Source: Bryum argenteum (lineage: Eukaryota > Streptophyta > Bryopsida > Bryales > Bryaceae). From it: a stretch of 64,000 nt of DNA. The stretch covers positions 20,674,364 to 20,738,363 of the forward strand of contig CM073322.1 of the NCBI GenBank assembly GCA_037043015.1, given 5' to 3'. The notes under the pieces were generated by a model, which saw only the letters and a program-made list of their open reading frames with translations, was not told the origin of the DNA and did not search any database. The position numbers and the translations under genes are program-made. Of the stretch, positions 887 to 60,532 are shown one piece after another (within the stretch, counting starts at the first letter, position 1; each line of letters opens with the position of its first letter).

Positions 887-3800
887 CTACTTTCGTATAG
901 AATTCGTGTGCCATCTGAGAGATATATAGAAGAAGAGGCGGTAGGCAATAACGAAGCAGAGCATGGGAACGATGCAAGACCACATCTTCACCTTTTGCAG
1001 ATCGAAGCTTGCGAGGACTTGAGCCGAATCCTGATTGTTGTACCATATGACGTTTTTCTGGTGCGAAAATTCATTGTACATGATTGCTTCGTAGGGATAC
1101 TTGAATATGGATAAGTAGTGGAACCATATCCAGTAGTTCGGAATCGCAGATCTGCACAAACCCGGCCACGCTTAAACCCTTTACCCTACGGACTCGCAAA
1201 ATCTTGCAAAAGACAGCATGATTGATTGAGAATGCATAGTTCCAAACTCTTCACATACTTGGAAAAGAGCAAAATTTACCAGATTTTTCATATGCGGCAT
1301 AAGAGAGGAGTGCGAGATGAGCACCTGAGAATGTAGAGTCCGGAGAAGAGATAGAAGAAGGCGCAGATACTGGAGACAGCGGGCTGGCCAGTAGCCATAT
1401 CCGGCACGAGACTGGCAATGAAGGCTACGAATGCATCGGCGACACAGAAGGTGAGGAACAGCATGAGGATGTAGAGGAGAATGACGTCCCAGTCGTTCAC
1501 CATGCCCACCAGGAAGTAGGACGTGCAGGTATAGATTAGTGATAATAGTAGCAGAAACGGCAAGCTCACAATCGGTTTGGCCAACACGTAGACGGAGGTT
1601 CTGTATGCCCCTCGCGACGTCTCTCGGGTGAACACCTGCCTCTCGTTGAGAAACACTGGGAGAGAATCCACGGCTGTGAATACGATGAACGCCAGCGTGA
1701 AGCTCGTGAACCCCTGTCTTTGGGTTACTCCTTTCCGATCCTTCTTCGCGTGCAGGTAGAGTGTGCCCATCACTAGGCTGCACAGCACCTGCCATTCACA
1801 TTTGCAATATGAACATCACAGCTTGCTCATCACTTACATCAGCTAACTGCAGCCTTTCCGCTACTCCTAGGCTAGTCACAGAGAATATGGAATACTCAAT
1901 CATATTGAGTTAAAAGACAAACTTTCGATCATTATTTACCGACTCCGATTGACGAAATCCTATCAACTCTAACAGTGGTTTTCATAATGCAGTCAGGAGA
2001 ATGTTGATTGGAAACTGACAGCACGGTCTTGTTTGGTACTAGCTCCACATTGATGGCTGTTGTTGATACCAGAACATTCTAAAAGGTTACATTTCTAGAC
2101 GAAAATGAATGATTGCACGCGGATTGATAGTAGTTGGGAAAAAGCAAGTCATATCATCACTTACAACATATCGACACAAACACTAATTGATTTGACTTTT
2201 GACAGTGGTATTCGTTGAGTGGAAACTGAGAGCCCGGTTAATTAGCTTTGAAAATAATGGATGTTATGGATGTCAATGAGCAACATATTCAAGAAAAGTT
2301 TCCAACGCTACACGAAAATGAGGAGTTTCTAGATGACTGTGCAATTTGCTGGAGGATTGATAGGAGAGAGCACATACTGCGAGGACAACGCGAATAATGA
2401 ATATAGATGGATTGCGGCAAAACGTGAGCCACTCCCGGTGCATGAGAATGGCGAGCTCTGCTGGAAACGAGTTTGCGAACACGGGTTGTTCGTTCTCCGA
2501 ACCGTCCGTCAACATATGCTCAGGTGTATACGGCACTCGATTCTCCTCAATCGCATAAGCCTTCCGCTGCAAACAATCACCTCCCTCGTCAGCTCCTCAA
2601 CTATCTAACTCCACAAACAACAGTAAACACTCGAGAATGCTTACTTGATACTCTACAAGACGCTGAAGACCGTCCGGGTAGTCTTGCGCCGCCTCGATAA
2701 GATCCAATGCATACTCAACCACATTCACGTGTGCGGGCATCCCACGCTCAATGCAGTTGAAGTAGGTGACCATGCCAGCGACGGGGCCATGGTAGACAAC
2801 ATTGCCTTTGGCCAGGATGAGAAACTTGTGAACAGTGGCGAGAATTCGGTAGCTAGGTTGGTGAATGGTGACGAGAACTGTTCGCTTACGCTGCACTGCC
2901 ATTTGCGACAGGATCTGCAGCACATGGAGAGCCGAGGAGCTGTCCAAGCCGGACGTAGGCTCATCCAGGAACAACACTGCTGGGTCGTGAATCAGGTCCA
3001 CTCCGATCGACACTCGCCGCCTCTCGCCGCCTGACAATCCCCGGAGACTCAACAATCCACCCTGTGCAGCCATGCATCTCGATTAGTAATTGCATTAATG
3101 TTGTTGATATTTAGTTCTTGCACTAGAATCACCGACTCTTGCAGTGCTAGTAACGACGGCTTCTATCTTAGAGGCCATGGCGCCGATGGTAAGACCCTCC
3201 GACAGCCCAGAAATGGAAACTGTTCCTTCCTTAATTGTAGAACATTAACAGTCTTGAAGAATGGCCATCGTGGCCGCCCTAACATACCATAGAACCATCT
3301 AATCTTGCACTGTTTGCAGATTCAACAACCATATAGAGTGCCTGTGCCTACTGTGAGTTCATTTGTACGAAGGTCTTTGATATTGTCGATCATAGCTCAC
3401 CTTCATGTCTCCAACATATGTGTCAGCGCAAGAGGTGAGACCAAGCATGTCAATCAGGGATTTCACTCGCTGTTTCTTCTCCGCCATTTTCATGCTTCCC
3501 GGAAGCCTGAGGCGAGCGCTGAACATGAGCGTTTCTCGTGCAGTCAAATGTGGATACAATGCATCATCCTGCGAACAATTAAATCCAGTCCGTGTCACAA
3601 ATCACGAGTAATCAAATTTTGAGTAACAAACCACAAGTGTGGTGAGCCCATACCTGCTGAACGTAGCCGGAGAGACGCTTGAAGGTCGAATCCATGGGCT
3701 TGCCATTGACAAGAATCTGCCCTCGCAGGGCCTTACGATCGATACGGCCCGCCAAAGCGTCCAGAAACGTAGTTTTGGAGGAACCGGAAGGTCCAGCAAT

Positions 3801-4165
3801 GGCCAGCACTTCACTAGGTCTTGCCTCAGTGGTGACATTGTTGAGCAAAACTCTCTCCCTCGTCACGCCTTTTCTCTCTTTCACTACAACCTGGCATCAA
3901 AACACCCAAGAGAGCAAAACCCTTCAGAGCACCGTTCGATTCTTTAGCACAAGAAAACACCCACCACGGTTTTAGCACAGTCTTATACCTTGTAAGTAAG
4001 GTCGTGGACAGAAAGCTCGTAGCCAGCAGATCGTTCCGGAGTGAGAGGAAACGTGTGCGCAGGGTGATGGGAAGGAGCAGGTCTCACACTGGTAAAACCT
4101 GCTGCAGGTGCTGATTCTCTACTGCTTCTTCCATAGCCAGGCCTGCCGTCATACTCAAAAGCCAT
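887..4165 (-). CDS. ABCG half-size transporter (white-brown complex, ABCG5/10-like), paralogue 1
   Basis: Predicted plasma-membrane ABC exporter half-molecule, one nucleotide-binding domain followed by one membrane domain, needing to dimerise. Model: complement(join(887..1151,1325..1788,2378..2566,2645..3061,3401..3568,3654..3890,3989..4165)), 638 aa. Visible motifs: Walker A GPSGSSKT at about 92-99, signature LSGGERRR near 203, Walker B VLFLDEP near 223-229, then the H-loop TIHQPS. The membrane half (about 335-638) includes the conserved [19 protein letters not shown] and [19 protein letters not shown] blocks. The family norm is 600-750 aa, so it looks complete. The motif mix ([18 protein letters not shown]) resembles the plant ABCG4/5/8/10/23 group, whose members move waxes, hormones or other lipophilic compounds; the substrate here is unknown. 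Oddities: Ser replaces the third Walker A glycine, and exon 4 has five more codons at its start than the paralogue at 14106-16847. Intron 5 is the longest (589 bp). Confidence 0.93.
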
Positions 4166-7225: not shown

Positions 7226-9154
7226 GTAATATGCTTTGAACTCGAGCAATTTTCAGTTCAACAAGTAGTTACATAAAATATTGGAAGGTGATGTCATAGG
7301 TGAACCATAAGCCAATCAAGTTGTGGTGTACATATGAGGATGAACTAAGATCATTCTCATAGCTTATTCAACCTAATCCTCGGTTTAACCCCAAATGGGT
7401 TTTGGAGGTTCTTGCTAGAGAAAACTTCACCCCGCCAACTTTGTCTATTATAATCACACTAACAACAATTCAAATTTGACATGTGAGTAATATGTCAAAG
7501 TCAACCTTTGAGATTGAGTTAAGGTTGGACTTTTTTCCAAATAGTACTTGGACTGGGATTTTTTGAACTTAAAGTAGAGGAAGGTCAAATTTTGTGATTT
7601 AGGCAATTGTGGGCTATAGTCCTTGTTCGATGGGATAAATGGTTTTTTTTTTTTTTAAACGCTATTTTATATTAAAAGGGCTACACTGATGGTTGAAAAA
7701 CAGGGGTCATCAAGCATTTACTCATGTCAGAAGTTGGCCATGATCACCGATGTACTTGTTGGTTCTGAAGGTCCAACTTATGTACCAACACACATTAAAG
7801 GCACACCGCGCATGTCGGGCATTCCACCCATGGCCACCGCGTAACTTCACTTGCTTGCAAGACTCCATCCGCAACAAGAAAAAAAAGGTAACAACAATAA
7901 GACACTGCACCTTCATTTAATAGGTCAGAAGCAGTTAATAGACTTACGGTGAAGTATTATCCCCTACGACCGAGCATGCCAAGTGGGGTACTTGGTCATA
8001 ATTTTAAAATATCATCTTCTGATGTTTTTAAAATTTTGTCTTTGTACATGCATTCTTGTTTATGAGTGAAAGTGTTGTCATTTGATTACTACATTAATTG
8101 TTTCAAAAAAAAAAAAAAAGTTTTGTCATTCATTCGGTGTTTATTGTCCGTCTGTTGTTTGTTACTTTACCTTTACACTAATTAGTGTGTATACTCTATG
8201 GCATAGGCGAGTTCAAAAGAAGATTGAAATCGTTAAAAAATAAGGATATTTTTTTAGTCTTTTAATGTATTTTTTAGAAAAGGTAATTGGTACTCAAAAG
8301 AACTGGAATTGGCACTGAAACGGTTGAATCGGTTTAAAAATTAAATTATTTAACAGGAGGGTGTCGAACTAGCCTATGACATACGTTACTATAGTTTACT
8401 ATAATATCTCGATTGATTGTATGAAACCAATGGAAATGTTTCATAATATATTAGCATTTGGATGGTAACCCCTAAACACGTTTTTGGTTATTCAATGATT
8501 TTGGGAAAATACAGTTTAGCTCGACTCAAGCTCTGAAATTGATAATTTGAATATATTTCCATTATAACGATATACATACGTGTTCATATGTATAAGTGTG
8601 TCTAGCTAGCTTCACACAATTCTTCAATGAATGTCGGCTAGTAAGTACTTCACGAGCAATGTCAACAAGCAATGATGGGAGCATAGCCGCATAAGTATTG
8701 CCAAAATTGGAGGCAAGTCATGATGTTGCAATTGCGGGATTGTTGCGTGACTCACAAGAAAAGACTCGTAACAAACAAGCACCGGCCATAAATTTTGTCG
8801 ACCTAAGGGCCAAGGGAGACTTTGCGCTGTTAGTACTGAAATTCCTCGTTCAACAACCCAACCCACCATCTCCGCAAAAATACAAAAAGGTCTATGTTAA
8901 CGAAATCCATACATGCATGTTCTAGAATGTTGCATAGACGGTAGCGTAGAATAACAAGTTGTCGTTGAAGGTGAATTTATGTTTAGGGCCATTCATTCAT
9001 AATGGAAAAAAGTGCGGTGCAGTCTGGCATATTGGTTGTTGGAATTTATGAAACTGCAGGTACGCATGTGTGGCCTCACATCACCTCCGTTGAATTTTGT
9101 GGACATTTGGTCTCAAACATTATTTAATACATTGCTTGAAGAAAGAAAGAAAAA

Positions 9155-14105: not shown

Positions 14106-16847
14106 ATGGCGAACAGTTACGAGATATCGCAAGCAGGCGTCAGGCAATCTCCGGCAATCTTGGAGAGCCTCCGCAGCTTTCCACCAGTGGGGAACCCGGC
14201 GTGCCCGTCTCCGGCTTACCAAGCTCGCCTCAGTCTCTTGAATTCTGCCGATGTCTTTCCTCCCACGCCTGCCCGCGCTACTCTTTACGAGATCACCGTG
14301 CACAACTTGACATATAAGGTACGCTCTCATTCCCACCCACGCCATGGCCTCGCCAATGTTCGAGCTTTAGGGCCTCTTAAATAACAAATGAGTTGGGTGC
14401 TGAAGCGCATGCACCGTTTTTTCGAACAGCAGATTTTCGTGTTGTGATTAGTTATGTGTGCTAGAAAGGTTGTGATGGAGCTGCAACGACTTGGGTGTAG
14501 GTGGTATCGAAGTACAGCAGAGAGAAAGAGGAGAAAATCTTGCTCAACAATTTGACAGCCCGCGCGAATCACAGTGAGGTGCTCGCCATTGCAGGCCCTT
14601 CGGGCTCCTCCAAGACGACCTTTCTTGATGCTTTGGCGGGACAGATCAAACGCTCGAGCTTGAAAGGGCAGATCCTTGTGAATGGAAAGCCTATGGATTC
14701 CAACTTCCGGCGCGTCTCCGGCTTTGTGACGCAGGTAGCCCTCAATCCATCACTTGCAAAAGCACAACATCCACTCGAACGATAATCCATCAATGTGATC
14801 ACATACTATTTCGTTCCCGCAGGATGATGCCATGTACCCGACCTTGACCGCCCGCGAGACGCTCATGTTCAGTGCCCGCCTCCGACTCCCAGGCACCATG
14901 ACGATCGAGGAGAAGCGAAATAGGGTGGAGTCTCTGATCGAGATGCTGGGCCTCCGGGATTGTGCAGACACATACGTGGGCGATGAGAAGGTAAACAATG
15001 CAAACCTTTGCAAACCCTGATTGGTGTGCGCAATCTTTGGCTCATTGCGAGTGGCGTGCAGATTAGGGGGGTGTCAGGAGGAGAGAGACGGCGAGTCTCC
15101 ATAGGAGTGGACCTGGTTCACGACCCGGCGGTGCTGTTGCTAGACGAGCCGACCTCCGGGCTCGACAGCACATCGGCCTTGCATGTGATGCAGATCTTGA
15201 GCAACATGGCCGTCAAGCGCAACCGAACCGTGCTTTTGACCATTCACCAGCCCAGTTACCGCATTCTCGATACTATCAACAAGTTCTTGGTGTTGTCACG
15301 AGGAAATGTGATCTACTACGGCGACGTCCCTGAGATGGAAAAGTACTTCAACGATCTGGGTTACAGCATGCCGGAAAATGTAAGCCGCTCCTGTCATTGC
15401 AAAACACCCCTAACTTTTCTATTTTTCAAGTGAGGCTTTATATTGATATGGTAGTCCTGTGCAGATGAGTGTGGTGGAGCATGCTTTGGATATCATCGAG
15501 GAGGCTCAAGACCAACCTGAGGGTATCACACACCTCGTCGAGTCCCAGGTAACGCCCTCCACTTGGCTCTTAATTAGCAAATTACTTCCATGTTGCGAGT
15601 GTACATATTTCGTGAGGTTCTCCTTCTTCAATCAGTATATTGAAATAGGGCGAAGAGTTATATGTATTGCAAGCTGCTATTGGCTTCGATTGCATGCTGA
15701 GGGTTTACTGTGCTGCAGGTGAAGTACCAACAGAATCAGGATGCCTTGAGGCTTGTGGCCATAGGAAGTCCGCTCATCGGCCAATACGACGATATAAGCA
15801 AGCCTTCATTTGCAACTTCAATGATGTCAGAAATGTGGGTGCTAGCACACAGATGTCTGCTCACAACCTGCCGCTCGAGGCTCCTCTTTGTCACTCGGAT
15901 CAGTCTCCAGGTGGGTCTCCTTATGAAAAGAAACTTGAAACTGAATTTGTGTATCATTTGCATTTACTGATTGTGAGAGTTTGTGTGCAGATTGTGGCGG
16001 CATTGATAATAGGAAGCTTGTTCTTTAACTCCGGTCACGACTACAAGGGAATTCTGCAACGCACAGGCTACTTCAACTTCGCCCTGGTCACGATCATCTT
16101 CAGCTCCAACGAAGCGCTCCCCATCTTTCTGAACGAGCGCCACATTTACATACGAGAGTCGTCACGAGGCGCATACAGAACGTTGCCATTCGTCATTGCC
16201 CAAGCGCTCGTCATGCTGCCATTTCAGTTCCTGCTCGCCTCCATCTTCTCTACCATCTCGTACTGGATGGTCGGTTTGGTTCCGACTGCCACCGCCTTCC
16301 TCACCTTCATCGGTATCGTCTTCCTCACGCTTTGTGTATCGAACTCGTTGGTGGCATTTATTGCCAGCGTCGTCCCGGACGAAAACGGTGGCCAGACTGT
16401 TATCCTCTGTATCTGCGCCATGTACTACTTGCTCTCAGGCTTCTTCGTCCAAAGGTGCTCACACTCTCTGCCTTCTCCCAGTTTTACTATCCCAGTTTTA
16501 TGGCAGTTTACCATAGTAGTTCGAATGTATCGCATTCTTAGACTTATGCTGAGTACGAGTTTGGTGCTTTGGGCAGAACGGGCATTCCCTGGTACTGGAT
16601 ATGGCTACACTATCTGTCAAGCTTCAAGTATCCATACGAGCTGATGCTGGCGAACGAGTATGGCCATCTCCGGAAAGTATGGTGGTTCTTCGGCGTCGAC
16701 TCCCAGCGAGTGCTGGAGTATTTCGATGCAGGCAAAGTGGCGGATCATTTGTGGATCAATTACGTGGCCATGTTGGCTTTCATAATCGGCTATCGTGTGC
16801 TCTTCTACCTCTCACTGAGGTTCTTCACGAAAAACGTTCGGCAGTAA
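14106..16847 (+). CDS. ABCG half-size transporter (white-brown complex, ABCG5/10-like), paralogue 2
   Basis: Predicted ABC exporter half-molecule of the plasma membrane. Model: join(14106..14318,14501..14734,14823..14990,15062..15379,15465..15548,15719..15910,15991..16454,16577..16847), 647 aa. Walker A GPSGSSKT at about 103-110, Q-loop region FVTQDDAMYP, signature VSGGERRR at about 209-216, Walker B VLLLDEP near 229-235, H-loop TIHQPS. The membrane domain carries ALPIFLNERHIYIRESSRGA and IPWYWIWLHYLSSFKYPYE. Exons of 168 and 464 bp have exactly the same length as in the minus-strand gene at 887-4165, and splice phases match, so the two are duplicates. The one difference is an extra intron here (15380-15464), falling after GYSMPEN; the other copy reads straight through. 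The unusual Ser in Walker A is shared. Substrate unknown; lipid, cutin or hormone export is typical of the group. Confidence 0.94.
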
Positions 16848-19396: not shown

Positions 19397-20155
19397 GAGT
19401 GGGAGTGTTGAATGTATTACAGAGTATGTTCATTCACTGATCAAGTAGTTTGAATTCTTAGTTAGTTACGGATGAATTCTGTCAAAGTAGGTGTAGATGA
19501 ATACTGTCCATAGCTCTACCTTCCGGATGTTCCTATGAGGGTTGTACCTCCGAGGTGCTTCTAGATGTTTCGGAATGAAGAGAGTATGTATCTCTCTCTG
19601 CTCATTTCCGATCATCTTGTGCAGGTGTAGCGTAGCAGCGAAAAGAATGAGAGTCCAAGCGATAGGTTCTTAGTTCTTGATAATACTGAGATGCATTTGG
19701 ATAGTGATCACTCCGCGTGGAATATGCACAAAACGATCTAAAGAGACATTGCTTTCTTAGTGACGTTGTGATTTGTGTTTTAGCTTACAGAAAATTCTTT
19801 AGGTTTTGTCTCTTTATATCGTTCTGTGCATATTGCACGCGGAGTGATCACTATCCAAATACATCTCAGTATTATCAAGAACTAAGAACCTATTGCTTGG
19901 ACTCTCATTCTTTTCGCTGATACGCTACACCTGCACAAGATCGGAAATGAGTAGAGAGAAATACATATTCTCTTCATTCCGAAACATCTAGAAGCACCTC
20001 GGAGGTACAATGCTCACAGGAACATCGGGAAGGTAAAGCTATGGACAGAATTCATCTACACCTACTTTTACAGAATTCATCCGTAACTAACTAAGAATTC
20101 AAACTACTTGATCAGTGAATGAACGTACTCTGTAATACATTCAACAGAGTGGCAG
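19397..20155. mobile_element. 741-bp foldback transposon with 9-bp target-site duplication
   Basis: The left arm (19406-19748) is repeated in inverted orientation as the right arm (19807-20146), with an unpaired centre of about 58 bp. The ends are TGTTGAATG and CATTCAACA. Immediately outside lie GAGTGGGAG (19397-19405) and GAGTGGCAG (20147-20155), a 9-bp direct repeat with one mismatch, as Mutator-like elements make. It encodes no transposase, so it is non-autonomous. The arms differ at only a modest number of positions, suggesting a fairly recent insertion. Confidence 0.8.
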
Positions 20156-27654: not shown

Positions 27655-28045
27655 CACTAACTTTGAGGAACCCAAAGTATGCTAAATTTTCCATAATGGA
27701 TAATGTTTTCATGATCTCCTTGATTATAGTTGAGTCAAGCAAATGCCTCGACTCAACTACAATGAAGGAGACCATAAGGCTCAAAAATGATTGATTGACT
27801 AGTCATCAATTAGTTAAGGAGAAAGGAGGAAAAAAGGGGAGGGTAAAAAAAAGAATGATGAAGATCTACATTAGAGAATTGAGCTTAAACTTGTTCAGGT
27901 CCTAATCCACTTTACACTACAAGAGTGACCACCACTCAAGAAGTTCTTCTTGATTTATCACGATCACGGCTTTTGGCCAAGCCATTACCATGAAAATGAT
28001 TTTAATTTTCTTGGTCCATAGTGTAAAGGGACCCTTAACTTGGAT
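27655..28045. repeat. Dispersed foldback-type repeat, copy 1 (partner at 37620-38190)
   Basis: An internal palindrome is visible: a block reading ATGATCTCCTTGATTATAGT near 27709 is answered in inverted orientation by ACTACAATGAAGGAGACCAT near 27757. The same blocks, plus ccactttacactacaagagtgac and ccatagtgtaaaggga, recur in order in 37620-38190. No coding capacity; class unknown. Confidence 0.55.
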
Positions 28046-56400: not shown

Positions 56401-57088
56401 TGCAGGAAAGGCAAGATCATAGACCCGTGGAGGAGCTCTCAAATTTCTGATGAGGATTTTGGTTCTGCGTGTCATGAAGCTCATCTCCAGGGTAGGCATT
56501 GAAGTTATACCTTGAGGTGTTAAACTTCTCAAGGACCCCAAACTGTATAGTACATTTTACCCACATCAATTTCTGTCTACCTGTTCGGAACTGTAACTTC
56601 TGATGAATCTAGTAAATGAGAAACAATAGGGTCGTAGTGGCGAAGATCTGGCGCAGAGTTTTGGCTTGCTCTACAGATTTTATATGAGGAATTATAGAAT
56701 ATCAACATGAGGTTCACTAAAGAGAAAAGGATACTATTACTACATGACGATCAGATAATTGAATTGCAATTTCCAGATTTCATGTATATTTCCGAATGTA
56801 TGTCAATTGAGTAGTCTTTGAGTCCTGATGGTCTTCAATCGCCGCCCCCGTCCCCAGATTTCAGGTTCTACAATAAAAGGTAAAGATCCCCAATCGCATG
56901 TAAATACAGACAAGAGGTTTAGTTTCATTTACAACATCTATTGTTGATTGAGTATATGTGATATTTCTAAACAGTGATTTCAATTACTTTCAGACGTGAC
57001 CAGAATCAAATTGTGGAGGCTCTTGAAGTGATTAGACTTTCACTATACTTGCTTCATTTACATTTGGTATCAGACTTTTTTGGAAGAA
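56401..57088 (+). other. MSH2 3' UTR and spacer
   Basis: Includes AATAAAAGG near 56872 as a possible polyadenylation signal and otherwise no recognisable feature. The end may contain the leader of the next small gene. Confidence 0.4.
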
Positions 57089-57469
57089 ATGACTAAGTAT
57101 TGCTTGTGCTCACCACCTAATCACAAGGGCTCATTCCGTTGCCGTCACCATCGAAGAAATGAGAATAAGCAAGACATCAAGCATGAAGAAAAAAGATCGC
57201 TTTCTCCTCCTGAATCATTTGTTAGTTATTGCGCTTGTGCACCAACTACTCACCCTGGATTATTCTGGTGTCAATATCATTGCACACTAGAATCATTTTG
57301 GAATGGACAACCACTTCCATCGTCTCCACCCGAATCATTTACTCTTTACTGTGCTTGTGCACCGACAACTCACCCGGGATCATTTCGATGCCGTTTTCTA
57401 TACTCAGAAAATTTCTTTTGGAATGGCCGTACAATTCCATTTTTGATAGAAGAAGACACATACTGGTAA
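57089..57469 (+). CDS. Small protein with three Cys/His repeats (CxCAPTTHPGxFxC type)
   Basis: Single-exon frame of 126 aa from ATG 57089. It contains three copies of a motif: YCLCSPPNHKGSFRCRHH (4-21), YCACAPTTHPGLFWCQYH (47-64) and YCACAPTTHPGSFRCRF (87-103). The last two sit in nearly identical 40-residue units that begin SPPESF and end with SFWNG or FFWNG. The spacing of Cys, Cys, His, Cys and His suggests metal binding or disulphides. From memory, a single C-terminal CxCSPTxHPGSFRCxxH motif marks plant serine-rich-like proteins of unknown function; three tandem copies without the Ser-rich part are unfamiliar to me. The C-terminal repeat has lost its final His. Function is not inferred. 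It lies between MSH2 and the tract carrying the plastid-type tRNA. Confidence 0.65.
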   Translation: MTKYCLCSPPNHKGSFRCRHHRRNENKQDIKHEEKRSLSPPESFVSYCACAPTTHPGLFWCQYHCTLESFWNGQPLPSSPPESFTLYCACAPTTHPGSFRCRFLYSENFFWNGRTIPFLIEEDTYW

Positions 57470-57543
57470 ATATTTAGTAGGTATAAGCTATGACCTTTTA
57501 ATTATTTTTTAGCATTTCAAATTATAAGTATAAATATATACAT

Positions 57544-57994
57544 GCCCTTTATCAGATTTGAACCGATGACTTACACCTTAGAGCGTCTCCACTGGGAGCC
57601 ATTTCTGACGCGCCGACTGTACTTCTGGTGCAGAATTGACACTATACAGCCCACCGCAATTGCGCCAATGGCATTTTCTGACACCAACTCTATTTTTTGG
57701 GTTATGCCAACAGAAACTTAGTGCAACCCAAATATCAACGGTATGTGAACATTGGTCAAGGTCAAAAATAAAGTGACTTTGTGCATGGATGGAGGAGGAG
57801 AGGTTGGCGGGTCCGGAGGCGTTATTTTAGAGATGACGTGACTATGCCGGGGAGACACAATTTCTGAACACTGATGTGTTACATGAGAACAGGAAAAGAT
57901 GCCACTTTAATATGGCGGTTGGCGTACCCGATGCCAGGGGAAGCAGTGGAGACGCTCTTAGCATGGCGTTACTCTACCACTGAGTTAGAAGGGC
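57544..57994 (-). pseudogene. Plastid-type tRNA-Thr (trnT-GGU-like), split by a MITE
   Basis: On the minus strand the two halves, 57994-57958 and 57580-57544, together form a 72-nt tRNA: acceptor GCCCTTC pairing with AAAGGGC, D arm ACTC-GAGT, anticodon stem ACGCC-GGTGT, T arm ATCGG-TTCAAAT-CTGAT. It matches, from memory, chloroplast trnT-GGU closely. The anticodon loop reads ATGCTAA, so the anticodon would be GCT rather than GGT, and the acceptor pair 7:66 is C:A. A 377-bp transposon with TTA duplication interrupts the loop. It is almost certainly inactive, and most simply a transferred organellar fragment. Confidence 0.85.
57578..57960. mobile_element. PIF/Harbinger (Tourist-like) MITE with TTA target-site duplication
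   Basis: A 377-bp element (57581-57957) with perfect terminal inverted repeats GAGCGTCTCCACTG, flanked by TTA on both sides (57578-57580 and 57958-57960). A 3-bp TTA/TAA duplication and GAGC-type termini are diagnostic for PIF/Harbinger MITEs. It is non-coding and its base composition is more GC-rich than the AT-rich tract it entered. Confidence 0.88.
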
Positions 57995-58200
57995 AATTTT
58001 AGTTTATTATTTGAAAATAAATATAAATATAGTTTGTGACAAAAAGGATATATTTGTCAACTTAAATTCGTCAACTTACATGAAGAATATTATTAAATCA
58101 TTGACTTACAGTAACTTTATTGATATTTTTCTCTATTATTTATCGAATTAATTTAAATAAACCTTTTCTTATTTTATCATCAAATAAAAAAAATCTAATG

Positions 58201-58599
58201 AAATCACATCCGGAGTAAAACCCTAGGGGAGCCTTTTGTCCTTTAGAGCTCAATCCATTCTATCACAGTCAAAATACTGGTCTTCAAGAATCCAGGGTTC
58301 AGGGTTTATGCTTCGTCTTCGTTTCAGAGAGTTCGTTAAACCCTAGTTCATGTTCTGGTTTTGGAGCCTCGGAAACAATCGTAGTTGATTGTGGTAGGTC
58401 GTCAGAATTGAGATCCCGCTTTCCTCATTTGGGGGCACCTGAAACGTCCGTGCAATAGATTGAGACATATAACAATTTTGGGTTTTTGAGACATGGAGAG
58501 GAAGCGAGTTGGTGTAGGCGTGGGAGCACATTTCCACGAATAATGAGATACATCATCGCAATCTAATTCAGGGTTTAGGGTTTTGGGTTTCCAGGAGCC
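58201..58599 (+). promoter_or_regulatory. mTERF4-like promoter/5' UTR with clustered telo-box motifs
   Basis: AAACCCTA-type motifs (telo boxes), or their complement, occur at about 58218, 58340 and 58572, with a related gggttcagggttt near 58294; another cluster lies in intron 1 near 58752. Telo boxes are common in promoters and leaders of plant housekeeping and translation-related genes. Their role here is inferred only from position. Confidence 0.5.
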
Positions 58600-60532
58600 A
58601 TGCTCCGGGGAATTTTGAGATCGCAGGGGTCGAAACTGCTGCTGGATCGCTTGAAGGCATCACATTCCGCACCATGGCCACGACGTTTTCATAATTCCGC
58701 GCCCACGCCGGCCCTGAAGACGGTACTTATCCCTGCTCAATCTTTTCAGTCGAGGTTTAGGGTTTAGGGAGATCGATGTTTGTTTGATGTGAATATTGTT
58801 TGTCCGAATGCAGGCAGGATTGTGGAGGACAAAGCCCAATCATCGAAGGTTGTCATCGTCTGCAGAGCTTGCTGAGCAGGCAGTTGATGAAGGCAGCGAA
58901 GATGGATCTACAGTTATGGAGTATCTGCAGTCACTGGGAATCAACACAACAGCTTTGGGCGACTTGGAACTGCCAAAGTTAAGGTCAGTAATGAAAGAAC
59001 GCATCGATTATCTACGAGATGTCATTGGACTAAGCATCAAGGACATCAACGACTACCCGCTCATGATCGGGTGCAGTGTGAGGAAGAACTTAAGTCCCGT
59101 TGTGCAGTATCTCCTAGATCTTAAGGTGACGAAAAACTCCCTTGCTGTTTTAGTCCGAAAGTATCCGCAGGTGTTGCACACGAGCGTGGCCATCGACTTG
59201 GTACCGAACGTGCGCTTCATCCAAGGCCTGGGCATCGAGCTCAAGCAGGTAGGGTCCGTTTTGACTCGGTATCCTCAACTACTGGGGTTCAGAATCGAGG
59301 GAACCATGAGCACATCCGTTGCGTACCTTGTCATGATCGGAGTTGACAAGCGACAAATCGGGCCACTTTTAACAGAGAAGCCAGAGATTATGGGCATGCG
59401 CGTGGGTAACAATTTGCGGCCCAAAGTGGAGTTCATTGTGAGCTGTGGTCTGCCGCACCTTGTGGTGGGCAAGATGATCGAGAACAGGCCCTTCATCCTG
59501 GAGTACGATGTCGAGGACAGGATGCGACCTGCTGTCGATGCGCTTCTGGAACTGGGCGTCCGCAGAGAGGCCCTTCCGGGAATGCTCATCCAGTACCCGG
59601 AGGTTTTGGGATTAAAGGTGAAAGACAAAGTGGAGGCGAAACTGCCGTGGCTTATCAACAAAGTCGGAATTCGCAGAGAGGACATGCCAGCAATTCTTGA
59701 GAAGCTTCCACAGGTCCTCGCTATCAGTGTGCCCACTGGTACCAAGCGAGTGCATGCTCTCCGGGCGCTGGGGTTGACAAAAGAACAGGTCGCTACCATG
59801 ATAGTGGCTTGTCCTCAGTTACTCGGTTTGAGTATGGACAAGCGAATCGTCCCGAATGGGGCCTTCATGGTGAAGGAGATGAAGGGAGACATCAAAGAAT
59901 TGCAGGACTTTCCCGCATTTTTGACATATGATCTTGACACACGGATTCGACCCAGGTTTCAAAAGATTACAGAGAAGGGCATCACTTCTTATTCTTTAGC
60001 ATGGATGCTTAATTGCAGTGACGCTAGATTTGAGGAGAGGTTGAAAGCGGGCTACAGTCCTGAAGAAGTGGATGCCAGTTTTGACACTGTCGGTCGTCTT
60101 CGTGTTCACGAAGACGTGCCTAGCGATGACGAAGATGTGAACAAGCAACTCCGACCCATTAAACTGAGAACCAGAGCTTCACCTCGAGCTCACCATGACG
60201 AAGAAGTGAACAGGCAACAGCGCGTTACACGGAGCACCAGAGCTTCACCTCGAGCTGCCCACGATGACGAAGATGAGAACGGGCACCGGCGCGTTACGCG
60301 GAGCACCAGAGCTTCATCTCGAGCCGATGCTGGTGATGTGGGTCGTCCTCCTCGTGTCCATGCAGACGTGCGTAGCAAGGAGGACGAGGACCGATTCGTT
60401 ACGCTGAAGACGAGAGCTTCACTTCGTGCTGATGCTATTGTGGGTCGTCTTCGTGACGACGAAGAAGATGCACCTCGAGCTGACTCTGATGAGAGATCAC
60501 AGATGCGATCATCACGAACTAGCAGATGGTAG
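58600..60532 (+). CDS. mTERF-domain protein, chloroplastic, mTERF4 (BSM/RUG2)-like
   Basis: Nucleic-acid-binding helical-repeat protein; the Arabidopsis relative (BELAYA SMERT/RUGOSA2) is needed for plastid group II intron splicing and chloroplast development. Model: join(58600..58722,58814..60532), 613 aa. The first about 60 residues are basic and Ser-rich, a likely organelle presequence. About nine consecutive mTERF repeats follow, marked by recurring YPQVLH, YPQLLGF, KPEIMGMRV, RPFILEY, YPEVLGL, LPQVLAI and CPQLLGLS. The block DFPAFLTYDLDTRIRPR then SLAWMLNCSDARFEERL is the mTERF4 C-terminal signature. After it comes an extra tail of about 140 residues with repeats TRASPRA, TRASSRA and TRASLRA between acidic DDED stretches; this is longer than I recall for the family. 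AATAAA at 61060-61065 may be the polyadenylation signal. Confidence 0.9.

Follow-up and report, generated by a model that had tools for sequence, protein, structure and literature searches.

The window, by which we mean the whole 64-kb stretch of DNA that was analysed, can be read as nuclear DNA, since MutS domains fall on separate exon-like ORFs and are accompanied by mTERF, ABC transporter, cyclophilin, DAP epimerase and RING matches. These assignments come from Pfam, which gave matches in 9 of the 10 ORFs scanned; MutS domains III, IV and V are spread over three exon-like ORFs, and parts of an ABC transporter lie on two. In character the genes seem to us to be those of a land plant. The claim, made earlier from the letters alone, that a plastid-type tRNA sits here in nuclear surroundings is supported, as to the setting, by these genes. 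The mTERF ORF (58793-60532) adjoins the trnT locus. A further ORF of 145 aa (57032-57469) carries three repeats of a cysteine/histidine motif (CxCxPxxHxGxFxC-like) as well as an internal DNA repeat, in which 57203-57320 and 57323-57440 are 71% identical, and it has no Pfam match. Elsewhere in the window, 741 bp at 19406-20146 align over their whole length with their own reverse complement at 89% and contain perfect arms of 98 and 64 bp; this segment, which starts with TGTTGAATGTAT and ends with ATACATTCAACA, is a large foldback or inverted repeat pair. Finally, two regions with ABC-transporter-like ORFs on opposite strands (1288-3858 and 14530-16644), whose DNA is 64-75% alike in three inverted pieces, are probably an inverted duplicate.

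The features of the trnT locus itself, in which a tRNA gene is divided into two halves by an insert, are collected in Table 1.

Table 1. Parts of the split trnT locus and its surroundings, in window coordinates
Feature	Position	Strand	Description
AT-rich flank, other side	57470..57543		possibly plastid spacer
3' half of plastid-type trnT	57544..57580	-	anticodon loop end, anticodon 3' strand, T arm, acceptor 3' strand
TTA target site duplication (TSD), copy 1	57578..57580		the two halves overlap by exactly these bases on the plastid gene
MITE-like element	57581..57957		377 bp, 48.5% GC
Terminal inverted repeat (TIR), left arm	57581..57594	+	14 bp
Terminal inverted repeat (TIR), right arm	57944..57957	-	14 bp, perfect match to left arm
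TTA target site duplication (TSD), copy 2	57958..57960		same 3-base overlap on the plastid gene
5' half of plastid-type trnT	57961..57994	-	acceptor 5' strand, D arm and anticodon 5' strand, with the loop as far as the target TAA
Very AT-rich flank	57995..58204		17% GC, single change-point block; possibly plastid spacer of the same insert

When the insert and one TTA were removed by script, ARAGORN called a cloverleaf with anticodon GCT in the joined halves. It measures 71 nt without the discriminator base and 72 nt with it, and in its acceptor stem C faces A at pair 7:66 (standard numbering). The sequence-only reading had proposed exactly this, namely that two halves on either side of a TTA-flanked 377-bp insert make up a cloverleaf in which the anticodon reads GCT in place of GGT and one acceptor pair is lost; its coordinates hold, and both the anticodon and the lost pair are as it described them. 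On unjoined sequence no tRNA was recognized, either by ARAGORN in the raw 64-kb window or by the same program with its intron options on a 660-bp stretch, and Rfam gave no match at gathering level across the window or at E values up to 1 within 57441-58100. Dinucleotide shuffling of the joined 280 bases yielded a tRNA in none of 2000 trials. Random deletions of 380 bp across the window did so once in 3000 trials, and the single tRNA obtained, with anticodon gct, we take to be the trnT site itself, since its anticodon and coordinates are those expected from deleting 57577-57956, which leaves the identical joined sequence.

When contigs of bacterial and archaeal genomes were scanned with a sequence pattern, seven of them matched. 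With the trnT-GGU of one, a contig of 43 kb from a MAG filed under Clostridia (CAMUZI010000007.1; G001:C7, hereafter L004), the joined tRNA shares 65 of 71 bases, and with the other six, which are labelled as bacteria, it shares 52-55 of 71. Over 8 kb of L004, ARAGORN detects trnD, trnY, trnE, trnT-GGU and trnS-UGA, and two long ORFs exceed by far the cut-offs of the NCBIfam equivalogs psbD and psbC, with Pfam in agreement. The five tRNA genes and psbD/psbC follow one another as trnD-trnY-trnE-trnT-psbD-psbC-trnS, so that trnT lies between trnE and psbD, and this we take to be the order of plant plastomes. As an observation in its own right, L004 is an apparent plant plastid contamination of a public bacterial genome.

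On this contig, both halves fall within trnT: the 5' half with its adjoining TSD matches G001:C7:27621-27657 (92% identity, E 1.2e-8), and the 3' half matches G001:C7:27655-27691 (92% identity, E 6.6e-9). The two therefore overlap by exactly 27655-27657, which reads TTA, and an exact overlap of three bases on the plastid gene is what a 3-bp target duplication predicts. The joined tRNA also equals, at 53 of 58 bases, a Cynodon plastid trnT fragment from a repeat that is described as partial trnT in an excerpt of PMC5472289, and, at 18 of 20 bases, a Juniperus trnT-GGU/psbD primer given in a passage of PMC5980425. The locus had no match in a plasmid collection, and two strict trnT patterns gave 0 and 0 matches among viral contigs. 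Judged by these likenesses, both halves are plastid-type trnT, and the resemblance to chloroplast trnT-GGU that had been noticed at first sight is confirmed by the placement of both inside the trnT between trnE and psbD. The copy in the window is, however, a pseudogene and not a working member of plastid trnT-GGU: its anticodon is GCT, its pair 7:66 is C-A and the gene is split.

Six differences from the trnT of L004 were counted, in linear numbering, some of which may be native to the species' own plastome. C5T and G67A are partners of one acceptor pair, so that pairing is kept; A67 is also present in the Cynodon fragment, which stops short of position 5. T7C, at a position outside the Cynodon fragment, abolishes pairing with the A of linear position 65 (standard 7:66), and G34C converts the anticodon from GGT to GCT. 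Three of the changes (G34C, C40T and C61T) differ from both L004 and Cynodon, and two of these (G34C and C40T) from Juniperus as well. C40T and C61T lie at CpG sites of the plastid trnT, two other CpGs of which are intact in the window copy. An excess of C/G-to-T/A changes in the NUPTs (nuclear plastid inserts) of 17 species was linked to methylation by the authors of PMC6376042, according to an excerpt of that paper. Methylation would likewise be a candidate cause of the decay seen here, for which two CpG changes are too few to make a test and to which T7C runs in the opposite direction.

The TIR of the inserted element is GAGCGTCTCCACTG. With arm starts 60-900 bp apart and a minimum length of 14 bp, perfect inverted repeats occupy 8 diagonals across the window, of which some belong to a single foldback; only the 57581-57957 pair is flanked by matching TTA/TAA. 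This, with the TTA by which the halves overlap on the plastid gene, supports a transposon-like insertion into a target TAA inside the anticodon loop, where the sequence-only reading had placed it. The DNA strand of the element folds better than shuffles do, a weak signal (z -2.38, with 2 of 100 shuffles as good).

With the Tourist-like PIF/Harbinger MITEs, such as mPIF and mPing, the element shares a 3-bp TTA/TAA duplication, a 14-bp TIR and a length of a few hundred bp. Matching descriptions of the TTA duplication, the TIR length and the size of Tourist-like MITEs occur in excerpts of PMC2213677, PMC6327408 and PMC2836001; the first of these gives a TIR range of approximately 14-25 bp for PIF/Harbinger (Tourist) MITEs and the second describes mPIF as 364 bp long with 14-bp TIRs. 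Unlike them, the element has no known transposase partner, no second copy of its 377 bp within the 64-kb window, and no G(N)5GTT in its TIR, a motif that the Medicago study PMC2213677, in the same excerpt, ascribes to most PIF-like elements and not to Pong-like ones. As far as TIR sequence is a guide, the missing motif lowers the case for membership of the PIF/Harbinger superfamily without excluding it. The structure, that is, TSD, TIR and size, nonetheless suggests a Tourist/PIF-Harbinger-like MITE, and the name "Harbinger MITE" under which the insert had first been entered is therefore apt in these three respects but weakened by the absence of the motif and of a second copy in the window. 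Around the target, the observed ACC-TTA-GCA fits 2 of the 6 outer positions of CWCTTAGWG, presumably the 9-bp extended target consensus of PIF, and the plastid-like GCC-TTA-CCA fits 1 of 6, which decides nothing on the order of events. The consensus was not found among the literature matches listed, nor were the strings GAGCATCTCC and GAGCGTCTCC. A single copy does not reveal in which order transfer, decay and insertion took place, a matter that had been thought open to study at this locus.

To either side of the tRNA halves the DNA is unusually poor in GC. Taken together, 57470-57543 and 57995-58200 (280 bases) have 17.5% GC. Contiguous 280-nt stretches, sampled at steps of 20 bases, are all richer (minimum 24% GC), a comparison that favours the flanks in that the two pieces were chosen after reading. 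At 140 nt, the lowest values of the window fall in this flank (18.6% GC from 58051), with near rivals at 9091 (19.3%) and 27501 (20.0%), and the spacers beside trnT in L004 have 26-29% GC. The AT-richness hints at plastid spacer, and in our view it is likely that the plastid insert extends beyond the tRNA. In alignments of the flanks with the L004 spacers, however, no score rises above chance (an equal score is reached by 328 of 500 shuffles in one case and by 402 of 500 in the other). A comparison of 13 kb of the L004 contig with the window at E 0.01 matched nothing except trnT, and 8 kb of it at E 0.5 gave, besides trnT, only three weak matches of 16-30 bases. The match to plastid DNA that had been expected of the locus was thus obtained for the tRNA halves, inside trnT, but not for the flanks against the spacers of this contig. 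An A/T-rich direct repeat, in which 57524-57538 and 58017-58031 match at 14 of 15 bases, encloses the tRNA and the MITE together; as good a match is reached in 5 of 500 flank shuffles, and an account by way of a NUPT does not need it.

We consider it highly probable that the locus is a dead NUPT carrying trnT-GGU, later split by a Tourist/PIF-Harbinger-like MITE. Plastid DNA with trnT-GGU, comprising at least the 71-nt gene and perhaps some spacer, would have been copied into the nuclear genome between the small cysteine-motif ORF and the mTERF gene. The functionless copy would have drifted, with changes in its anticodon and in one acceptor pair, and the two C-to-T changes at plastid CpG sites would be expected if the insert was methylated. 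At some stage of this decay, a non-autonomous Tourist/PIF-Harbinger-like element would have targeted the TTA/TAA of the anticodon loop and so split the gene.

The transfer was presumably direct from the plastid. Since the flanks do not align with the single plastid contig compared, there is also room for an insert of the tRNA only or for a route through the mitochondrion, in which a chloroplast-like mitochondrial trnT would have reached the nucleus as a NUMT and undergone the same MITE history. We hold the latter to be improbable. Plastid-derived tRNAs are a frequent topic of the plant mitogenome literature among the matches listed, and flanks with no match to the L004 plastid spacers would suit such an origin. 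However, the GC content of plant mitochondrial DNA is usually above 40%, and that of the flanks is far under this level, although they may lie outside the insert.

The direct repeat around the tRNA and the MITE, together with the naming of plastid tRNA genes as a source of SINEs in an excerpt of PMC11110229, could instead be taken to mean that a tRNA retroposon relic is present, in other words a plastid-type tRNA copied in the manner of a SINE and bounded by a 15-bp duplication. This origin is hard to credit, as the repeat consists almost entirely of A and T amid sequence that is itself A/T-rich and lies 5 bp from one end of the tRNA but 22 bp from the other, and no SINE body is seen between its copies. 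To the idea of a live nuclear tRNA gene, whose anticodon loop would contain the MITE as an intron to be removed, we give practically no credence. The RNA fold predicted for the uninterrupted transcript, with no shuffle control, does keep the cloverleaf arms and places the TIR stem on the anticodon stem. Yet T runs such as TTTT terminate Pol III transcription, and the transcribed strand of the insert contains both TTTT and TTTTT; moreover, the insert adds about 380 bp to the distance between the A- and B-box regions, pair 7:66 is lost, the anticodon is changed, and the intron options of ARAGORN detect no tRNA. It is very unlikely that the split trnT copy is able to function, and in all likelihood no mature tRNA is made from it.

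As a probable dead NUPT, the locus belongs with a body of earlier observations, cited here from excerpts: in Moringa, the NUPT features listed include 912 nuclear tRNA genes of plastid type (PMC11110229), and the NUPTs of 30 angiosperms lie closer than expected to some transposon superfamilies (PMC12572781). What the present copy has in common with these is a plastid tRNA gene in nuclear DNA; it differs from them in that a single small element has split the tRNA and in that only the tRNA itself was matched to plastid DNA. Among the matches listed for a literature query combining NUPT, MITE, tRNA and insertion, no title describes such a case. NUPTs with plastid tRNA genes are well known from earlier work, and plant genomes commonly contain MITEs; put together, the two make a neat new instance of kinds already described.

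A different significance would attach to the locus if the window came from a lineage that lacks plastid trnT-GGU (Lycopodiaceae, perhaps Selaginella). According to an excerpt of PMC6590440, all six Lycopodiaceae plastomes of that study lost trnT-GGU and all five of its Selaginella species lost most plastid tRNAs. In such a lineage, the gene would be gone from the plastid and the nuclear copy would be its fossil, which may at one time have acted as a nuclear-encoded bridge until the MITE ended it, an origin that we regard as distinctly improbable. Unless the plastome of the species is indeed without trnT-GGU, a dead NUPT split by a MITE leaves general ideas unchanged. It nevertheless offers, at one locus, a clear case of a plastid gene that was copied into nuclear DNA, decayed and received a transposon-like element, in which the 3-base overlap of the two halves on the plastid gene displays the target duplication directly, and orthologous sites could date the insertion of the element relative to the decay.
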